Positions 22,577 through 64,000 of a stretch of 64,000 nt of DNA are shown here, in pieces. The notes beneath the pieces were generated by a model. The model was not told the origin of the DNA, searched no databases, and saw nothing but the letters and a program-made list of their open reading frames with translations. Origin of the DNA: a virus; IMG/VR virus record IMGVR_UViG_3300029267_004887, positions 78,255 to 142,254 of that record. The stretch is one strand, 5' to 3'. Both the position numbers and the translations under genes were made by a program. Within the stretch, counting starts at the first letter, position 1. Every line of letters begins with the position of its first letter.

Positions 22577-22831
22577 ATGTCCATTGCGTTGGCGACAAAA
22601 GGTCGATTATGGCCAGCAGGTGGTACCATAATCATACGAGAGCAGTTTGTAGACATCACGGCAAGCATTGTAGATCCTTTGGAGGTGACAGTCGACATGG
22701 AGGAATCCGTGTCAGTGGTGTCCGAGGTGGAGGAGAGCCCATTAATTTCTGCCACGGTTGAGGTGGAAGATACTGTTTCTGATGATGTTGAAATAGACAC
22801 GGACATCAATGGTACAGTAGAGGAGTGTTGA
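22577..22831 (+). CDS. Small acidic protein
   Basis: 84 residues from ATG 22577, with GGGAG just upstream and only 2 nt after the previous stop. An N-terminal strand region (LATKGRLWPAGGTIIIREQF) is followed by a very acidic Val/Glu/Asp tail (VDMEESVSVVSEVEES). It is part of the same small-protein operon and has no recognised family. Confidence 0.55.
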   Translation: MSIALATKGRLWPAGGTIIIREQFVDITASIVDPLEVTVDMEESVSVVSEVEESPLISATVEVEDTVSDDVEIDTDINGTVEEC

Positions 22832-26118: not shown

Positions 26119-26152
26119 TCAAATCTGATTGAGATCAACTAGTCGATTTTGT

Positions 26153-26272
26153 AGGTGTAAAATTGAACCAAAAGTACTGCATGTGGGATCACAGGTGTAA
26201 AATTGAACCAAAAGTACTGCATGTGGGATCACAGGTGTAAAATTAAACCAAAAGTACTGCATGTGGGATCAT
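26153..26272. repeat. Three 40-bp tandem direct repeats
   Basis: Three consecutive 40-bp units begin at 26153, 26193 and 26233. Units 1 and 2 are identical; unit 3 has one internal change (G to A at its 13th base) and one at its last base. Each contains AGGTGTAAAATTGAACC and ends ATGTGGGATCA. Iteron-like arrays of this kind bind initiator or partition proteins in many replicons. They begin 34 nt after the thymidylate-kinase stop. Confidence 0.9.
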
Positions 26273-26457
26273 GGGTTTGCTGTAAGTATTATTAATTATT
26301 ACATTGTTTAGTTGGCGGATTGTTGTAGATTTGCAGGTTTTTTTTGTTATTTCTGTGCAAATTGGGGGTGCATCAGGGTGCACACATAAGAAGATCCACT
26401 AAGGTAGTCATGTTGTATTTAAATTATAAGACTGTTTCGGATCGTGCTTCGCACTCG

Positions 26458-26482
26458 CGACGTCTAACCGACGTCGTTTTTT
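26458..26482 (+). terminator. Rightward hairpin terminator
   Basis: A 7-bp perfect stem CGACGTC/GACGTCG (26458-26464 with 26470-26476), loop TAACC, is followed by six T. It would stop transcripts arriving from the left. Its near-perfect inverted copy lies at 26637-26661. Confidence 0.75.
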
Positions 26483-26636
26483 GTTTTTGTGTATACTAAT
26501 ACTTCTTTCAATTTCTTTTTTATTTTTGTGTAAAACAAATTGACTTTTTGAATATCAAATTTCAAAAATTGTTTTTGCATTTTACGTTACGTACACGTAT
26601 TTTAAATATCGAATAGAATTTTAATATACAAAAAAC
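26483..26636. other. AT-rich core between facing terminators
   Basis: About 150 bp of very AT-rich sequence with no coding signal lies between two facing terminators. It contains an 8-bp inverted repeat TTTTTGAA/TTCAAAAA and a short run ACGTTACGTACACGTA. Taken with the iteron-like repeats 200 bp to the left and A-tract DNA to the right, it is a candidate DNA-unwinding element. No known initiator box is recognised. Confidence 0.45.
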
Positions 26637-26661
26637 AAAAAACGACGTCGATTAGACGTCG
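26637..26661 (-). terminator. Leftward hairpin terminator
   Basis: On the minus strand this reads as a 7-bp CGACGTC/GACGTCG stem with loop TAATC, followed by six T. Together with the left copy it forms a 34-bp inverted repeat (26455-26488 and 26631-26664) with a single mismatch. It would stop transcription entering from the right. Confidence 0.65.
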
Positions 26662-26664
26662 CGA

Positions 26665-26686
26665 GACATTGACGTTAGTCAATGTC
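26665..26686. other. Strong hairpin next to terminator
   Basis: GACATTGAC and GTCAATGTC form a perfect 9-bp stem with a GTTA loop, placed directly beside the leftward terminator. It has no T-run, so it is not an obvious terminator. It may be a protein-binding palindrome or a cruciform site. Confidence 0.6.
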
Positions 26687-26720
26687 GATCTGGTTCCGGA
26701 TCTAACTCTAAGAACAATTT

Positions 26721-26870
26721 GAAAAAATGTTTAAAGTGTTGCGCCCGAATGAAAAACAAATTGAAAAACAAATTTGACAAATACAAAGACAAATATTAAA
26801 AAAACAAATATCGAAAAGACAAAGATAAAAGTTAAAAAACAAACAAGATTCCCCCTTGGCTAGAAAAAAA
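26721..26870. other. A-tract rich, possibly curved DNA
   Basis: This non-coding stretch has repeated short A-tracts separated by CAAAT/CAAAG units (AAAAACAAATTG, GACAAATAC and similar), many spaced by roughly one helical turn. Phased A-tracts often produce intrinsic curvature at origins and promoters. No gene is seen; a hairpin ATGAAC-TAAA-GTTCAT with five T follows at 26909-26928. Confidence 0.4.
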
Positions 26871-26908
26871 GAAAAAGAAAGACGAATTTTGGTAAGGCGA
26901 GTGTGTGA

Positions 26909-26928
26909 TGAACTAAAGTTCATTTTTG
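26909..26928 (+). terminator. Short hairpin with T-run
   Basis: A 6-bp stem ATGAAC/GTTCAT with loop TAAA is followed by five T. It resembles the weaker hairpins before 24916 and 34505, which also end in GTTCATTTTT. It could be a weak terminator ahead of the next transcription unit. Confidence 0.4.
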
Positions 26929-27004
26929 TGTGTTTTTTCTCAGAAATGTGATACACTTAACACTGGTTTAGTTGCCTCGCTAGTAGCGGGAGGGAGGAGA
27001 ATCG

Positions 27005-27055
27005 ATGAAACAACCTATCAGATTAATGGTCAGCAGGAGGATGAGATATGGCTAA
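27005..27055 (+). CDS. Possible 16-residue leader peptide
   Basis: ATG at 27005 has a very strong upstream site (GGGAGGGAGGAG). The ORF encodes MKQPIRLMVSRRMRYG, then TAA, and its end overlaps the start of the next gene by 8 nt. A small hairpin CGCT/AGCG lies just upstream of the ribosome site. It may couple translation to the next gene or act as a leader; the peptide itself is unrecognised. Confidence 0.4.
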   Translation: MKQPIRLMVSRRMRYG

Positions 27056-58198: not shown

Positions 58199-60304
58199 GA
58201 ATTGGGAGTTTGGACAATACAAGAAGCCTTTGAAGTAGGTGGGTTGTTACATCGAGTTCTTGAGCAGTATGAGCCACGGCAACCACAAATAGAGTTGGCA
58301 GTGGCTATAGCCGAAAAGATGCGAGCTGGAGGGCATCTTATGGCTGAGGGGATGACAGGGGTTGGGAAGACATTGTCGTACTCTATACCGGCAATCAGAC
58401 AGTCTCAGTTGGATTCGGAATCTTCTGATCACGAGGAGAAGGTAGAGGATCGTGAGTATGAAGGGGGTGAAGGGGAAGATTTTGAGGAGGATTCCGAAGA
58501 GCCTTCTCGTGTTGTGATTGCTACGGCAAATATTGCGTTGCAGGAGCAGCTGTATTTCAAGGATTTGCCGACACTGAGAAGGGCTTTGCCGAATAATTTC
58601 AATTTTGCGTTGGTAAAAGGGCGGAACAATTATCTCTGTAAATCTCAGTTGGACAAGTTCCGGTTAGAGACGGCTTCCGAGGCTGTACCAATGGGTAAGG
58701 ATGTTAGTACGGTACAGCTCAAAGATCTTTACGACGTAATAAATTCGGATGAGGAGGCGATCTGCAAGTGGTCGCAGGAGACAGAGTTTGGAGATAAATC
58801 TGAGTTGGAGATAGAGCCAAGGTCGGAGACGTGGAGGAAGTTCTCGGTGACGGCTGAGGAGTGCATTGGATCAGAATGTCCATATCGAAAAGAGGTTGGC
58901 TGTCATGCCGAGAGTGCGCGTAAGGCACTTCAGTTCATGGACGTGATTATCGTGAACTATCATATGTTGTTTTCAGCGGTGAAAGTACAAATGGAGACTG
59001 GTAAAGATATTGTATTACCGCCATTCAAATATTTGATTTGCGATGAAGGTCACAAGATGCCTGATATAGCCAGAGCTTTTTTCGGTTGGCATATTTCTCA
59101 AGCAGTTATGAACCAAGCTGTCAACATGCTGAGAAAGGTTGTGTCAAAGGCTGGTACGTCAGATGAAGAAGGGGAAATTGTTGCTGCTCGGATAAATGCG
59201 GCGCATGGGGGTATAAAGAAGTTCTGGGATGAGGTAGCAGAGGTGTTTGGTGATCACAAGGGGCAGATGCGTATTACGCGTACGGATGTGGTCAGGGGAT
59301 TGGCGTTGGCTCAGTCGTTGGTGGATGTAGCTGATTCATTGTTGGATTTTAGCGAGTTTTCTGTTGATGGTTTTTCGAGGGAAGAGATCAGGAAGAAGGC
59401 TGGTCAGCTTAAGAGAGTTGTGGATCATCTTAGAGATGCCATGGAATTGGGTGATCAGAACAGTGTGTATTTCATCGAGCGAGCGGGTAAGAATCGATGG
59501 TTGAATATCGTCAATCGGAAATTAGATGTGGGGGATATACTGTGGCAAAATTTGTTCGAGCGAACAAAATCTACGGTGGTTACATCTGCGACCTTGGCTG
59601 TAGATGGTGATTGTTCGTTTTTGCGAAAAGAGTTAGGGCTGGCAAAATGTGGTGAAGTGTTGGTGGGCTCGCCATTCAACTTCCGAGAGCAGGCATGTAT
59701 TTTGTTGAGTGATCGTGCGCCGGATCCAAAACAGGACAACTATCCCGTGCGGGTATCTGTTGCGATGGCGGAGATCATCAAACAGGCTGGTGGGCGGACA
59801 CTGGGATTGTTTACGTCGTATCGAGTGTTGCATTATGTGGCGGAGTATATTCAGGAAGAGATGCCGGACTTGAATTGTTTGGTTCAGGGGACAGCTCCTC
59901 GGCGTAAACTGATAGAGGAGTTCACAGCGGATGTGGGGAGTGTATTGTTGGGCACGGAATCGTTTTGGACGGGTATAGACGTGCCAGGAGAGAGCCTGTC
60001 ATGCCTCGTGATAGACAAGATACCTTTCCCATCTCCTGCCAACCCTGTGCTGGCTGCGCTGTCTGAGAGGGCGGTAGAGGGTGGTTTCTGGGGTATCTCT
60101 ATACCTCGTGCCGTGCTTCAGTTCAGGCAAGGTGTTGGTCGGCTGATCAGGAGAGAGAGTGATCGGGGAATTATCGTAGTGCTCGATAATCGGTTAGTGA
60201 CCAAAGGATATGGTTCGATCTTTTTGAATAGTTTGCCGAGGATGAAATTAGCAAAGAGCCTAAGAGATAATCAGATAACGAGGTGGCTGGAGGGTGAGGT
60301 TTGA
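58193..60304 (+). CDS. dinG: DinG-family Fe-S helicase
   Basis: 703 residues from GTG. Walker A is EGMTGVGKT (about 52-60), the DEAH-type box reads DEGH (284-287), and four Cys (C149, C224, C229, C237; CIGSECPYRKEVGC) sit where DinG/XPD proteins bind a 4Fe-4S cluster. C-terminal motifs include VVTSATLAVDG and FRQGVGRLIRRESDRG. It unwinds DNA 5' to 3'. An acidic insertion follows Walker A (about 74-103). It overlaps the phosphoesterase gene. Confidence 0.85.
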   Translation: MPELGVWTIQEAFEVGGLLHRVLEQYEPRQPQIELAVAIAEKMRAGGHLMAEGMTGVGKTLSYSIPAIRQSQLDSESSDHEEKVEDREYEGGEGEDFEEDSEEPSRVVIATANIALQEQLYFKDLPTLRRALPNNFNFALVKGRNNYLCKSQLDKFRLETASEAVPMGKDVSTVQLKDLYDVINSDEEAICKWSQETEFGDKSELEIEPRSETWRKFSVTAEECIGSECPYRKEVGCHAESARKALQFMDVIIVNYHMLFSAVKVQMETGKDIVLPPFKYLICDEGHKMPDIARAFFGWHISQAVMNQAVNMLRKVVSKAGTSDEEGEIVAARINAAHGGIKKFWDEVAEVFGDHKGQMRITRTDVVRGLALAQSLVDVADSLLDFSEFSVDGFSREEIRKKAGQLKRVVDHLRDAMELGDQNSVYFIERAGKNRWLNIVNRKLDVGDILWQNLFERTKSTVVTSATLAVDGDCSFLRKELGLAKCGEVLVGSPFNFREQACILLSDRAPDPKQDNYPVRVSVAMAEIIKQAGGRTLGLFTSYRVLHYVAEYIQEEMPDLNCLVQGTAPRRKLIEEFTADVGSVLLGTESFWTGIDVPGESLSCLVIDKIPFPSPANPVLAALSERAVEGGFWGISIPRAVLQFRQGVGRLIRRESDRGIIVVLDNRLVTKGYGSIFLNSLPRMKLAKSLRDNQITRWLEGEV

Positions 60305-60579
60305 TACCTCTGTTTGATACGTCGTGGTTTGATGGCGACATTTGGTTGACAGGTGATTTACACTTGGGACATAGGAATATACTTGAGTACGAGAAGCGAC
60401 CTTGGGACAACATAGACAGGCACGATAATATGTTGATCTCGATAGCGCGAGAAGTGGTCAAACCGAACGACCTTTATATCATCGTGGGAGATCTGGCACT
60501 CCCTGGTCGTGATACGCATACGAGAGTGATGCGTTATCGAACGCACCGTAAAACCCCGTACTTAAGTATGGGGATATAA
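60301..60579 (+). pseudogene. Truncated calcineurin-like phosphoesterase
   Basis: ATG/TTG start overlaps the helicase stop by 4 nt. IWLTGDLHLGHRNILEYEKRPW (about 14-35) and VGDLALPG (about 66-73) are the D-x-H and G-D motifs of the phage metallophosphoesterase family. The chain loses its normal continuation: GNHD and later His motifs are missing. It ends with residues from the mobile element's left-end region. Full-length relatives are about twice as long. Probably interrupted by the TnpB element. Confidence 0.65.
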
Positions 60580-60606
60580 GGTGTTTTTGGAGAAGTTTAG
60601 AAAAAT

Positions 60607-61776
60607 ATGATCATACGCAAGGCATATCGGTTTCGGTTGAAGACAAGTTGTGACACTGAGCAGTTATTCAGGCAGTTTGCTGGTTGCACTCGATTTGTAT
60701 GGAATCGATTTCTTGCAGAGCAGAAAGTTCGGTTGGATAGTGGAGAGAAGGTAGAGGGTTGGTTTGATTTAACCAGTCAAGTAGTTGTATTAAAAAAGGC
60801 AGAAGACACATCGTTTTTGAGTGATGCTCCATCTCAAGTACTTCAACAAAAGTTAAGAGATTTATCTCGGGCGTTTTCTGATTTTTTTGACAAGAAGCAG
60901 TCAAATAAGCGATTTCCTCGATTCAAGAAGAAAGGGATGAGTGATTCTTTTCGTTATCCTCAAGGGTTTAGGATCGATGGGAATCGTATTTTTCTTCCAA
61001 AAGTTGGTTGGGTACGATTTTACAAGAGTCGAGACATAGAGGGTAAACCCAAAAACGTGACAGTATCTCGAAGTGGTGAGCATTGGTATGTGTCTATCCA
61101 GACAGAGCAAGAGGTAGTTGATTCAGTACATCCTTCTCGTAAGATAGTTGGTATCGACATGGGGATAGCTCGATTTGCAACCTTGTCAGATGGTACAGTA
61201 ATCGAGCCGTTGAACAGCTTTCGCAGGCTGGAGAGCCGTCTTACTAAAGAACAACGTAGGTTGTCTCGTAAAAAGAAAGGTTCACAAAACAGGTATAAAC
61301 AGAAGAAGAGGGTATCAAGGTTACACATTCGCATATCCGACACTCGAAAGGATTTTTTACATAAGGCTTCTACAGAGATAAGCAAAAACCACGCGATGAT
61401 CATCGTAGAGGATCTGAAGGTAAAAAACATGAGTGGATCTGCAAAGGGAACTTTGGAAAATCCTGGCAAGAATGTGAAAGCGAAATCGGGATTGAACAAG
61501 TCGATACTGGATCAGGGATGGTCTGAATTTCGAAGGCAGTTGGAGTACAAGCAGCATTGGCGTGGAGGAGAGGTGATCGCTATACCTCCTCAATACACAT
61601 CGCAGAAATGCCCGGTATGTGAGACCATTTCTTCTGAGAACAGGAAAACTCAGAAAAGGTTCAAGTGCATCGAGTGTGGGTATACAGAGAATGCTGATTT
61701 GGTAGCAGCGAGAAACATTTTGGCGGCGGGGCACGCCGCAGCAGCCTGTGGAGGGATTGACATTGGTCAGCCCTAA
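60607..61776 (+). CDS. tnpB: TnpB RNA-guided nuclease
   Basis: 389 residues, apparently intact. RuvC-type catalytic residues are D184 (GIDMG), E268 (IIVEDLKV) and D364 (NADLVAARN). Zinc-finger Cys are C335, C338, C354 and C357 (CPVCE and CIECG). N-terminal part (YRFRLKTSCDTEQLFRQFAGCTRFVWNRFL) fits the family. TnpB uses an omega-RNA from the element end to cut DNA next to a target motif. No TnpA gene is found; the element may be immobile or domesticated. Confidence 0.9.
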   Translation: MIIRKAYRFRLKTSCDTEQLFRQFAGCTRFVWNRFLAEQKVRLDSGEKVEGWFDLTSQVVVLKKAEDTSFLSDAPSQVLQQKLRDLSRAFSDFFDKKQSNKRFPRFKKKGMSDSFRYPQGFRIDGNRIFLPKVGWVRFYKSRDIEGKPKNVTVSRSGEHWYVSIQTEQEVVDSVHPSRKIVGIDMGIARFATLSDGTVIEPLNSFRRLESRLTKEQRRLSRKKKGSQNRYKQKKRVSRLHIRISDTRKDFLHKASTEISKNHAMIIVEDLKVKNMSGSAKGTLENPGKNVKAKSGLNKSILDQGWSEFRRQLEYKQHWRGGEVIAIPPQYTSQKCPVCETISSENRKTQKRFKCIECGYTENADLVAARNILAAGHAAAACGGIDIGQP

Positions 61777-61842
61777 GAAGCAGGAACCATTTTTGGGTTT
61801 AACTCAAGGAATCCCCGTCCTTCAGAGCGGGGAGGATGTCAA
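61777..61842 (+). ncRNA. Putative omega-RNA 3' region
   Basis: The right end of the element after the tnpB stop ends with the hairpin CCCCGTCC..CGGGG and GGAGGATGTCAA. In IS605-type elements the scaffold RNA of TnpB overlaps the 3' end of tnpB and ends here, with the guide copied from the flanking DNA, which would be the bases from about 61843. The 5' boundary is not visible. Confidence 0.5.
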
Positions 61843-61944
61843 ATGCCAGTTAATCTGGAGATTGTGTTGCCATTGTTTGGCAAAAAGAGGGGTACATGTG
61901 ATTGGAAAAGTGTTGTTAGGAATAGGCACAAGGAAGGATTTTGA
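61843..61944 (+). CDS. Short ORF after TnpB element
   Basis: 33 residues (MPVNLEIVLPLFGKKRGTCD...). The GGGGAGG of the element's right end would act as a ribosome site 7 nt upstream. It may be a small gene or the remainder of one cut by the element; it does not look like the missing part of the phosphoesterase. Confidence 0.35.
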   Translation: MPVNLEIVLPLFGKKRGTCDWKSVVRNRHKEGF

Positions 61945-61947
61945 ACG

Positions 61948-62214
61948 ATGGTAAAGAAGGGTAGTTCTGAACCAAAAATTCCGAGAAGGAAAAATTTACG
62001 GATCACAAAGAGGGAGACAAAAGAGATGGCTTTGGAGCTGGTAGCAGACGCCATAGGGGGTACGTTTGCTGAATCAATGTTGAGTGCTTTCAAGGTCAGA
62101 ATGATGAGTGAATGGAAGCGTACTCCGAGCATAGGAGAGCAAGATGTGTTCCTTGAGGAGATCACCAGGATTGTTAAAAACCTCAGAAGGCGTGTTACCC
62201 GAAAAGCGAATTGA
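61948..62214 (+). CDS. Small basic protein
   Basis: 88 residues from ATG with AAGGA upstream. Basic N-terminus (KKGSSEPKIPRRKNLRITKRETKEMALELVADAIGG) and basic C-terminus (IVKNLRRRVTRKAN) suggest nucleic-acid binding. No named family. It precedes the 300-nt non-coding region. Confidence 0.55.
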   Translation: MVKKGSSEPKIPRRKNLRITKRETKEMALELVADAIGGTFAESMLSAFKVRMMSEWKRTPSIGEQDVFLEEITRIVKNLRRRVTRKAN

Positions 62215-62317
62215 TGGAAAATTCGCAGTGGATCGGAAAGTCGTCAAAAGATAGGTTAGTGGCATGGTTAATATGCGGTATGTGTATAATCTAAAAAAAA
62301 TGATTTAACATAGTGAC

Positions 62318-62346
62318 TTGACAGGTGAAAATTGAAAGATTACTCT
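62318..62346 (+). promoter_or_regulatory. Candidate sigma70-type promoter
   Basis: TTGACA (62318-62323) is a perfect -35 box; 17 nt later is TACTCT (62341-62346), a moderate -10. Transcription would start near 62353, at the first base pair of the folded RNA described next. A TATAAT at 62285-62290 has no good -35 partner. Confidence 0.5.
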
Positions 62347-62350
62347 TTTT

Positions 62351-62484
62351 ACTGTGTGAACGAACTAGATTTCGTGAATTTGCCCTAACAGGTACCCAAC
62401 CATGCCTGAATTTACGAAACTGGTTACACAGTCATCGCCTATCGACATCGCTCGTACTCCCGTGGGCGGTGTCGAGTTTTTTTT
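62351..62484 (+). ncRNA. Putative structured small RNA or leader
   Basis: The sequence folds into a nested structure. The outer stem is ACTGTGT/ACACAGT (62351-62357 with 62426-62432, 7 bp). The inner stem is TTTCGTGAATT/AATTTACGAAA (62370-62380 with 62409-62419, 11 bp with one wobble). The apical stem is CAGGTA/TGCCTG (62389-62394 with 62403-62408). A terminator hairpin follows. There is no start codon. It could be a small regulatory RNA or a riboswitch-like leader of the gene 28 nt later. It does not fit a tRNA. Confidence 0.5.
62442..62484 (+). terminator. Strong hairpin terminator
   Basis: A 10-bp stem TCGACATCGC/GCGGTGTCGA (62442-62451 with 62466-62475) with one G-T wobble, a 14-nt loop and then eight T. 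It is the best terminator in the right part of the window. Confidence 0.85.
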
Positions 62485-62511
62485 ACACTTTTTTCAAACA
62501 ATGAGGTCGTT

Positions 62512-62763
62512 ATGGCAGGCGAGCGGGAAAGTTTGCTCAGTCGTTCATTGCTAGATTGGGAGTGCATAGATGTCATGGATCAAGGCGATTCGATATTGAT
62601 GGCCTATGGTGATTTGGATCGTGGTTTGTTTTTGGAGATGTCGACTCCGTATGATGCATTAAGTGAAGCAGATTGTGAGATGGTGTATTACATTGACGGC
62701 GATAGTCGGATGTTTGATAGCGAGGCAGATTTGGTTAGAGAGTGGCGAAAGAAGCTATCTTGA
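62512..62763 (+). CDS. Small acidic protein
   Basis: 83 residues from ATG (TGAGG upstream). MAGERESLLSRSLLDWECIDVMDQGDSILMAYGDLDRGLFLEMSTPYD and DGDSRMFDSEADLVREWRKK are acidic alpha/beta. It follows the structured RNA and terminator, so its expression may depend on read-through. Family unknown. Confidence 0.55.
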   Translation: MAGERESLLSRSLLDWECIDVMDQGDSILMAYGDLDRGLFLEMSTPYDALSEADCEMVYYIDGDSRMFDSEADLVREWRKKLS

Positions 62764-62853
62764 TTTTTTAAAAAACGTAAAGATATTACGCTTTTAAATG
62801 GTTTGGGTACTACTTTTGTGCTATGCTTTTAGCAAGGTAGAAAGGATGATGGG

Positions 62854-63081
62854 ATGAGTAGTCATTTGATCGAGGATGCGTTGATTGTGCATGAAACTTA
62901 TCACGACAAGGGTGAACAAAAAGGTAAGCGGAAGGCGATTCTGGTGGAGGCGATGGACTTCGAGGAGAACGAGTGGATACCGTACAGTGCTGTGCATGAT
63001 GACTCGGAGGTTCACCAGGTGGGAGATTGTGGGGATTTGTTGATCAAGGAATATTGGGCTGAGAAGAAAGGTTGGATATAG
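62854..63081 (+). CDS. Small hypothetical protein
   Basis: 75 residues from ATG preceded by GATGGG-type purines. SHLIEDALIVHETYHDKGEQKGKRKAILVEAMDFEENEWIPYSAVHDDSEVH looks like a compact alpha/beta protein. The gap before it (62764-62853) holds TTTTAA and ATGCTTTTAGC; no clear promoter. Function unknown. Confidence 0.6.
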   Translation: MSSHLIEDALIVHETYHDKGEQKGKRKAILVEAMDFEENEWIPYSAVHDDSEVHQVGDCGDLLIKEYWAEKKGWI

Positions 63082-63095
63082 GTGCCAGCAAAATT

Positions 63096-63205
63096 GGTAA
63101 CTGGTAATCGGTTGTGAGGTAACTGGTCACCACTCGAATAATCGCATGGTGACTGGTCATTTGGCAGATGGCAGGTAGTAAGCAGGTGGTAACTGGTAAT
63201 CGGTT
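63096..63205. repeat. TAACTGGT direct and inverted repeats
   Basis: GGTAACTGGTAATCGGTT occurs exactly at 63096-63113 and 63188-63205. Between them TAACTGGTCACC and TGACTGGTCATT form related units, and GTCACCA/TGGTGAC make a 7-bp inverted repeat (63126-63132 with 63147-63153). GGTGCCAGCA also occurs twice (63081 and 63277). The area 63082-63354 has no gene; G-rich direct repeats fill most of it. Purpose unknown. Confidence 0.7.
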
Positions 63206-63354
63206 ATCTACCTGGACACCGGGGGCATTGAGCGGGAGAGAGCGGGTCAGGGCGGGGTAGGGTCATACCGAGCACAGGTGCCAGCAGAGAGCGCGTGAGG
63301 CGGCGTGAGAGCTAACAAAAAACTAAGTCGCAAATTGGCGGGAAGGTAAACACA

Positions 63355-63636
63355 ATGGTTGGCAATGGGAACAAGAGAAGTAAGAAGAAGGTTTACGGTG
63401 ATGAGGAGAACAGGAAGTTGTATGAGGAGGTGATAGAGGCGGGCAGGAGGGAAGCGGAGGTAGAGGGGTTGAGGTATACGATAAGGGAGTTAGAGGGGGA
63501 GGTAAAGAAGCTGAGGGCAAGCAATGAGTTACTTGAGGAGGAGAACAACGGGTTGAGGTTATATTCACAGTTGAGGATGCATCTTACACAGTTTGTGGAG
63601 AGTGTGACAGCTATAGAGGGGGAGAACGAGAACTAG
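63355..63636 (+). CDS. Small coiled-coil protein
   Basis: 93 residues from ATG 63355. Basic N-terminus (GNKRSKKKVYG), then a long charged coiled coil (YEEVIEAGRREAEVEGLRYTIRELEGEVKKLRASNELLEEENNGLRL). The ribosome site is weak (GGGAAGG). It may be a DNA-binding or scaffold-type small protein; no family is recognised. Confidence 0.55.
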   Translation: MVGNGNKRSKKKVYGDEENRKLYEEVIEAGRREAEVEGLRYTIRELEGEVKKLRASNELLEEENNGLRLYSQLRMHLTQFVESVTAIEGENEN

Positions 63637-63666
63637 GGAAAACTAGGGTGGGAAAACTAGGGTTAT

Positions 63667-63709
63667 GTCACTTTGCAGAATAAAGGTCACTTTGCAGAAT
63701 AAAGGTCAC
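63667..63709. repeat. Two perfect 19-bp tandem repeats
   Basis: GTCACTTTGCAGAATAAAG is repeated exactly at 63667-63685 and 63686-63704, followed by the first five bases of a third copy. Just before it, GGGAAAACTAGGG occurs twice. The array sits upstream of a small membrane gene and may be an operator. Confidence 0.8.
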
Positions 63710-63767
63710 AGCAAATCTTTACGGCGTAATAGGATATTGGGAGTAACAGATCAACAAGGAGGAAGAG

Positions 63768-63878
63768 ATGAAGGTAGGATACGAGGAAGTAGTAGTGATC
63801 ACAGCGTTGGCTACAGTTACATTCAGAGTGGTGTCGTCATTGTACGATTTCATACTGGGAGCGCTTCGTAAGAAGTGA
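63768..63878 (+). CDS. Small single-pass membrane peptide
   Basis: 36 residues from ATG 63768 with an excellent AAGGAGG site. MKVGYEEVVVITALATVTF... gives one membrane-like helix and a basic end (LGALRKK). Because of the strong site it is preferred over the 68-codon ORF that overlaps it in another frame. Function unknown. Confidence 0.55.
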   Translation: MKVGYEEVVVITALATVTFRVVSSLYDFILGALRKK

Positions 63879-63893
63879 TGACGTAGGGGGTGA

Positions 63894-64000
63894 TTGGGTA
63901 CTGTGAAGGGAAACATCAGAGGAAGTACCAGGGGAAACACCAGGGGAAACATCAGAGGAAGTACCAGGGGGGGGAACACTAGGGGGAAAATACCAGGGGG
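63894..64000 (+). CDS. Possible RG-repeat protein, 3' partial
   Basis: From TTG 63894 (or GTG 63903) the frame stays open to the window edge and encodes a tetrapeptide repeat RG[NS][TI] (IRGSTRGNTRGNIRGS...). The 12-nt DNA repeat gives this. The TAGGGGG before it is a possible ribosome site. It may be a real low-complexity gene or just the repeat read in a lucky frame. Confidence 0.3.
   Translation, partial: MGTVKGNIRGSTRGNTRGNIRGSTRGGNTRGKIPG
63908..64000. repeat. G-rich short repeats at window edge
   Basis: The unit GGGAAACATCAGAGGAAGTACCAGG appears at 63908 and again at 63944, with shorter variants (GGGGAAACACCA, GGGGGAAAATACCA) around. The array continues past the window. Base composition is strikingly G/A on this strand. 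Confidence 0.75.

Follow-up and report, generated by a model that had tools for sequence, protein, structure and literature searches.

The small RNA LhrC of Listeria monocytogenes carries C-rich motifs redundantly and uses them to occlude Shine-Dalgarno sites; those in loop A, the linker and the terminator loop all bind a G-rich ribosome site (PMC4132741). Among phage RNAs, PreS of lambda and VpdS of VP882 have shown Hfq binding and targets, while OOP, sar and aQ are encoded opposite their targets (PMC12197685). Hardly any small RNAs have been mapped in uncultured large phages, and the locus described here is a sharp, testable example, of modest weight as a single orphan predicted from sequence. 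On a slight balance of probability, we read it as encoding an RNA of ~134 nt (62351-62484) that is independently transcribed and terminated and specific to its phage lineage; its probable mode of action is antisense pairing in trans.

We analyzed a window of 64,000 nt, positions 78255-142254 within a linear virus record 142,254 bases long. The record encodes a DnaB-like helicase, a primase, a UvsX-like recombinase, and ParB-like proteins of a divergent tailed phage; the helicase shares only ~28% identity with those of named phages. The + strand carries nearly all genes of the record, and with 30% G and 16% C, the sense strand of the genome is rich in G and poor in C. The candidate RNA locus is a 297-nt gap (62215-62511) between two + strand orphan genes with positive codon scores: an upstream gene of 88 aa (61948-62214) and a downstream gene of 83 aa (62512-62763) that has a GAGG ribosome site to itself. 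It lies ~500 nt beyond an IS1341-type tnpB element (60301-61841), which sits immediately after a truncated 92-aa metallophosphoesterase and may have interrupted that gene. Elsewhere in the window, a 929-nt AT-rich non-coding stretch (26119-27047) holds three near-identical direct repeats of ~40 nt (GGTGTAAAATTGAACCAAAAGTACTGCATGTGGGATCACA), together with two distant hairpins (CGACGTC...GACGTCG) whose T/A tracts face each other; the stretch may function as a replication origin or in regulation. At the extreme end of the record, G-rich repeats (AGGGGAAACATCAGAGGAAGTACC-like, 63880-64000) possibly caused the assembly break.

The search of RNA family models suggested in the preliminary description gave no credible match: no Rfam family reached its gathering score, and relaxed thresholds returned weak chance matches only. 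Searches of phage, plasmid, viral contig, and genome contig DNA for exact and distant matches stayed at chance level. The best phage match spans 26 nt (E 0.9), the best plasmid match has an E of 2, and the best match among related viral records spans 24 nt (E 0.04). A covariance model built from the single sequence found no second copy in its own genome or in 39 loci of relatives (next best E 0.24). Both flanking genes are orphans for which no relatives were found. Related phage fragments could be reached via UvsX (53-59% identity), and in one of these, the nearest relative, gene order is kept up to DinG (52%). The 4 kb past DinG in this relative has nothing in common with positions 60301-64000 of the window, and the candidate RNA is absent there. 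Because the nearest relative diverges after DinG, we place the RNA in a variable, accessory genome end, and because it has no known relatives, any function we propose for it is hypothetical.

Folding and shuffling resolved the main hairpin (62351-62432, + strand) as four stacked helices of 8+5+11+6 = 30 bp. Its bulges (AACGA, A, and the C-rich UGCCCUAA) all lie in the 5' arm, the 30-nt 3' arm is fully paired, and CCCAACCA forms the apical loop. The nested fold first described was thus recovered, with 30 bp in the main hairpin in place of a stem total of 24. The fold has a z of -5.2, with an equally good fold in none of 200 shuffles, and an arm of at least 30 contiguous paired bases arose in 0/1000 dinucleotide shuffles of 62215-62511. 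Comparison with the genome itself is a stricter control than shuffling. By this measure the hairpin energy is unexceptional (about rank 66, with ~65 other sites equal or better) and the locus falls outside the 30 most stable 140-nt windows, while the contiguous arm ranks second genome-wide. No 140-nt window of the genome is more unusually stable than L007:1601-1740 (record 61601-61740), which has an unbroken hairpin arm of 34 bases and sits within a short helix-turn-helix-like gene.

Of the 43 pairs in the structure, the 7 that are not Watson-Crick are without exception G·U when read on the + strand, where the hairpin reaches -28.6 kcal/mol vs -18.2 kcal/mol on the minus strand. From these two observations, we assign the locus the architecture of a + strand RNA. 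The absence of an ORF stated earlier holds loosely: two mechanical ORFs (59 and 50 aa) run across the locus, but their codon scores are negative, whereas those of the neighbouring genes are positive. The locus holds a stable, non-coding fold that exceeds shuffled sequence.

Downstream of the hairpin, folding places a single-stranded linker (CAUCGCCUA, 62433-62441), and a terminator scan and folding place an intrinsic terminator on the + strand at 62442-62484, with a 13-bp stem, the loop UACUCCCG, and a T8 tail at 62477-62484. A terminator this strong was reproduced in one of 1000 dinucleotide shuffles of 62215-62511, and it is one of two strong hairpin-plus-T8 terminators seen in 142 kb, so the strong terminator of the preliminary description holds. 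With eight residues, the tail has the U tail of at least seven looked for in the intrinsic terminator of an independent small RNA gene. The second such terminator of the genome, at L006:1767-1832, follows a gene in the record's first half. The main hairpin and the terminator are predicted to coexist, each with a pairing probability near 1.

A perfect TTGACA (-35) is present at 62318-62323 on the + strand; with the fold and the T8 terminator, it lies on the strand and in the place first described. The promoter attributed to the locus is less secure: at a 17-nt spacing, the -10 is TACTCT (62341-62346; 3/6 match), and the resulting candidate promoter TTGACA-N17-TACTCT (62318-62346) does not pass a simple sigma-70 scan. 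A TTGACA anywhere in the gap occurred in 137/1000 dinucleotide shuffles of 62215-62511. Upstream of the -35 lie an A8 tract (62293-62300), which may act like an UP element, and a TATAAT (62285-62290), one of ten in the window and the only one in a gap, which could serve as an alternative -10 without a good -35. A62351 is 5 nt past TACTCT, and with a start there the 5' end of the RNA would coincide with the hairpin; a start from the TATAAT would instead add ~54 nt of leader. Elsewhere, at L004:7172-7272 (the identical position in the whole record), a lone tRNA-Glu(TTC) is followed directly by TTGACA-N16/17-TATCAT, a better sigma-70-like promoter than that at 62318.

The weak -10 TACTCT favors the main rival reading, rather unlikely in our estimate though of real weight: the locus would belong to the transcript of 61948-62214 and the genes before it, as its 3' untranslated end, with any small RNA a by-product. 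The stable hairpin before the terminator would then block 3'-5' exonucleases. Such a 3' end fits a genome with nearly all genes on the + strand, a terminator that closes a gap, and the comparable terminator 3' of the gene at L006:1767-1832. However, the upstream stop codon and the hairpin are 136 nt apart, and the intervening sequence holds the perfect TTGACA, the A8 tract, and the TATAAT; a 30-bp bulged hairpin with C-rich loops would also be superfluous for a plain terminator.

It is improbable that the locus is a leader, riboswitch, or attenuator of the gene at 62512, in which a ligand or protein on the hairpin would set read-through of the terminator. Only 27 nt, with no promoter seen among them, separate the end of the T8 from the start codon, and the linker segment UCAUCGCC can pair with the 3' arm of the terminator (-14.6 kcal/mol). 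Yet no upstream segment pairs strongly with the 5' arm (-8.0 vs -21.5 kcal/mol for the terminator stem itself), the gene at 62512 is an orphan, and no riboswitch family matched. Because no antiterminator was found, we disfavor the riboswitch-type leader proposed in the preliminary description; in place of mutually exclusive structures, both hairpins form together. Very unlikely, too, is a DNA-level element (a protein-binding palindrome, a recombination site, or a mobile-element remnant) or chance: the region is variable and near the IS1341-like tnpB element, but wobble pairs interrupt the palindrome in DNA, the fold is specific to the + strand, the T8 is correctly placed, and the genome holds no second copy. 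A retron was rejected on finding no reverse transcriptase in the record, as was an omega-RNA of the nearby tnpB, since the IS ends near 61841, some 500 nt off. The layouts of integron attC, 6S RNA, and phi29 pRNA presumably do not suit the candidate either.

The preliminary description did not include the C-richness of the loops. In the predicted RNA, C occupies 17/40 (42.5%) of unpaired positions, in four C-rich stretches: the bulge UGCCCUAA, the apical loop CCCAACCA, the linker CAUCGCCUA, and the terminator loop UACUCCCG. Several unpaired segments thus carry C-rich motifs, as in LhrC. Unpaired C averages 10.4% in + strand windows genome-wide, none of which (0/2364) reaches the level of the candidate, and 34% in minus-strand windows. 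Since such C-richness is typical of minus-strand windows, the loops resemble antisense sequence. The C-richness of unpaired segments against a G-rich sense genome is a simple statistic by which other skewed phage genomes could be screened for antisense-type RNAs with no need of homologues. Among the 178 gene starts called on the phage + strand, several pair well with the loops, but none does so better than with shuffled loops; the best pairing (-17.6 kcal/mol), between the terminator loop and the gene at 22577 at its ribosome site, was equaled by shuffled loops. Because shuffled loops pair equally well, no phage target can be claimed. An antisense match of 11 nt between the apical loop and tnpB (61005-61015) is suggestive as that gene is a neighbour, and we set it aside because about one such match is expected across the window.

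The independent small RNA reading draws on what was observed in silico: a + strand-specific two-hairpin fold, a T8 terminator, non-coding composition, and extremely C-rich loops. The anatomy first proposed for such an RNA fits, with a hairpin at a plausible start, a linker, and a terminator in order; the weak -10 is the part that fits poorly. Also counting against this reading are the lack of any homologue found, the absence of the RNA from the nearest relative, phage pairings at chance, and the abundance of hairpins of similar energy in the genome. The TTGACA at 62318 would drive transcription, starting near A62351, and Hfq or ProQ may bind the T8 tail if either is present in the host. The four C-rich unpaired segments (bulge, apical loop, linker, and terminator loop) could then act as redundant seeds for G-rich ribosome-binding sites of phage or host mRNAs, and this pairing would lower translation. 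We give little credence to a multi-seed decoy, in which the four C-rich segments would titrate many G-rich ribosome-binding sites at once, or a host RNA or RNA-binding protein; if true, this would be a global shut-off or anti-defence RNA, not a single-target regulator.

Altogether, as an orphan small RNA of a phage, the candidate appears ordinary. It would join OOP, sar, and aQ as a small regulatory phage RNA, although no gene is seen opposite its locus (PMC12197685). Like PreS and VpdS, it is a short phage RNA for which pairing with phage or host mRNA is proposed (PMC12197685); in contrast to these, it is a prediction from sequence for which no relative was found. LhrC differs in that it has no sequence relation to this phage-borne candidate, whose only true UCCC is in the terminator loop, the other segments carrying GCCC, ACCC, and CGCC. 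In layout, the two are alike: both have two hairpins and a U-rich 3' tail, and in both, a stem-loop, the linker, and the terminator loop carry C-rich motifs (PMC4132741).
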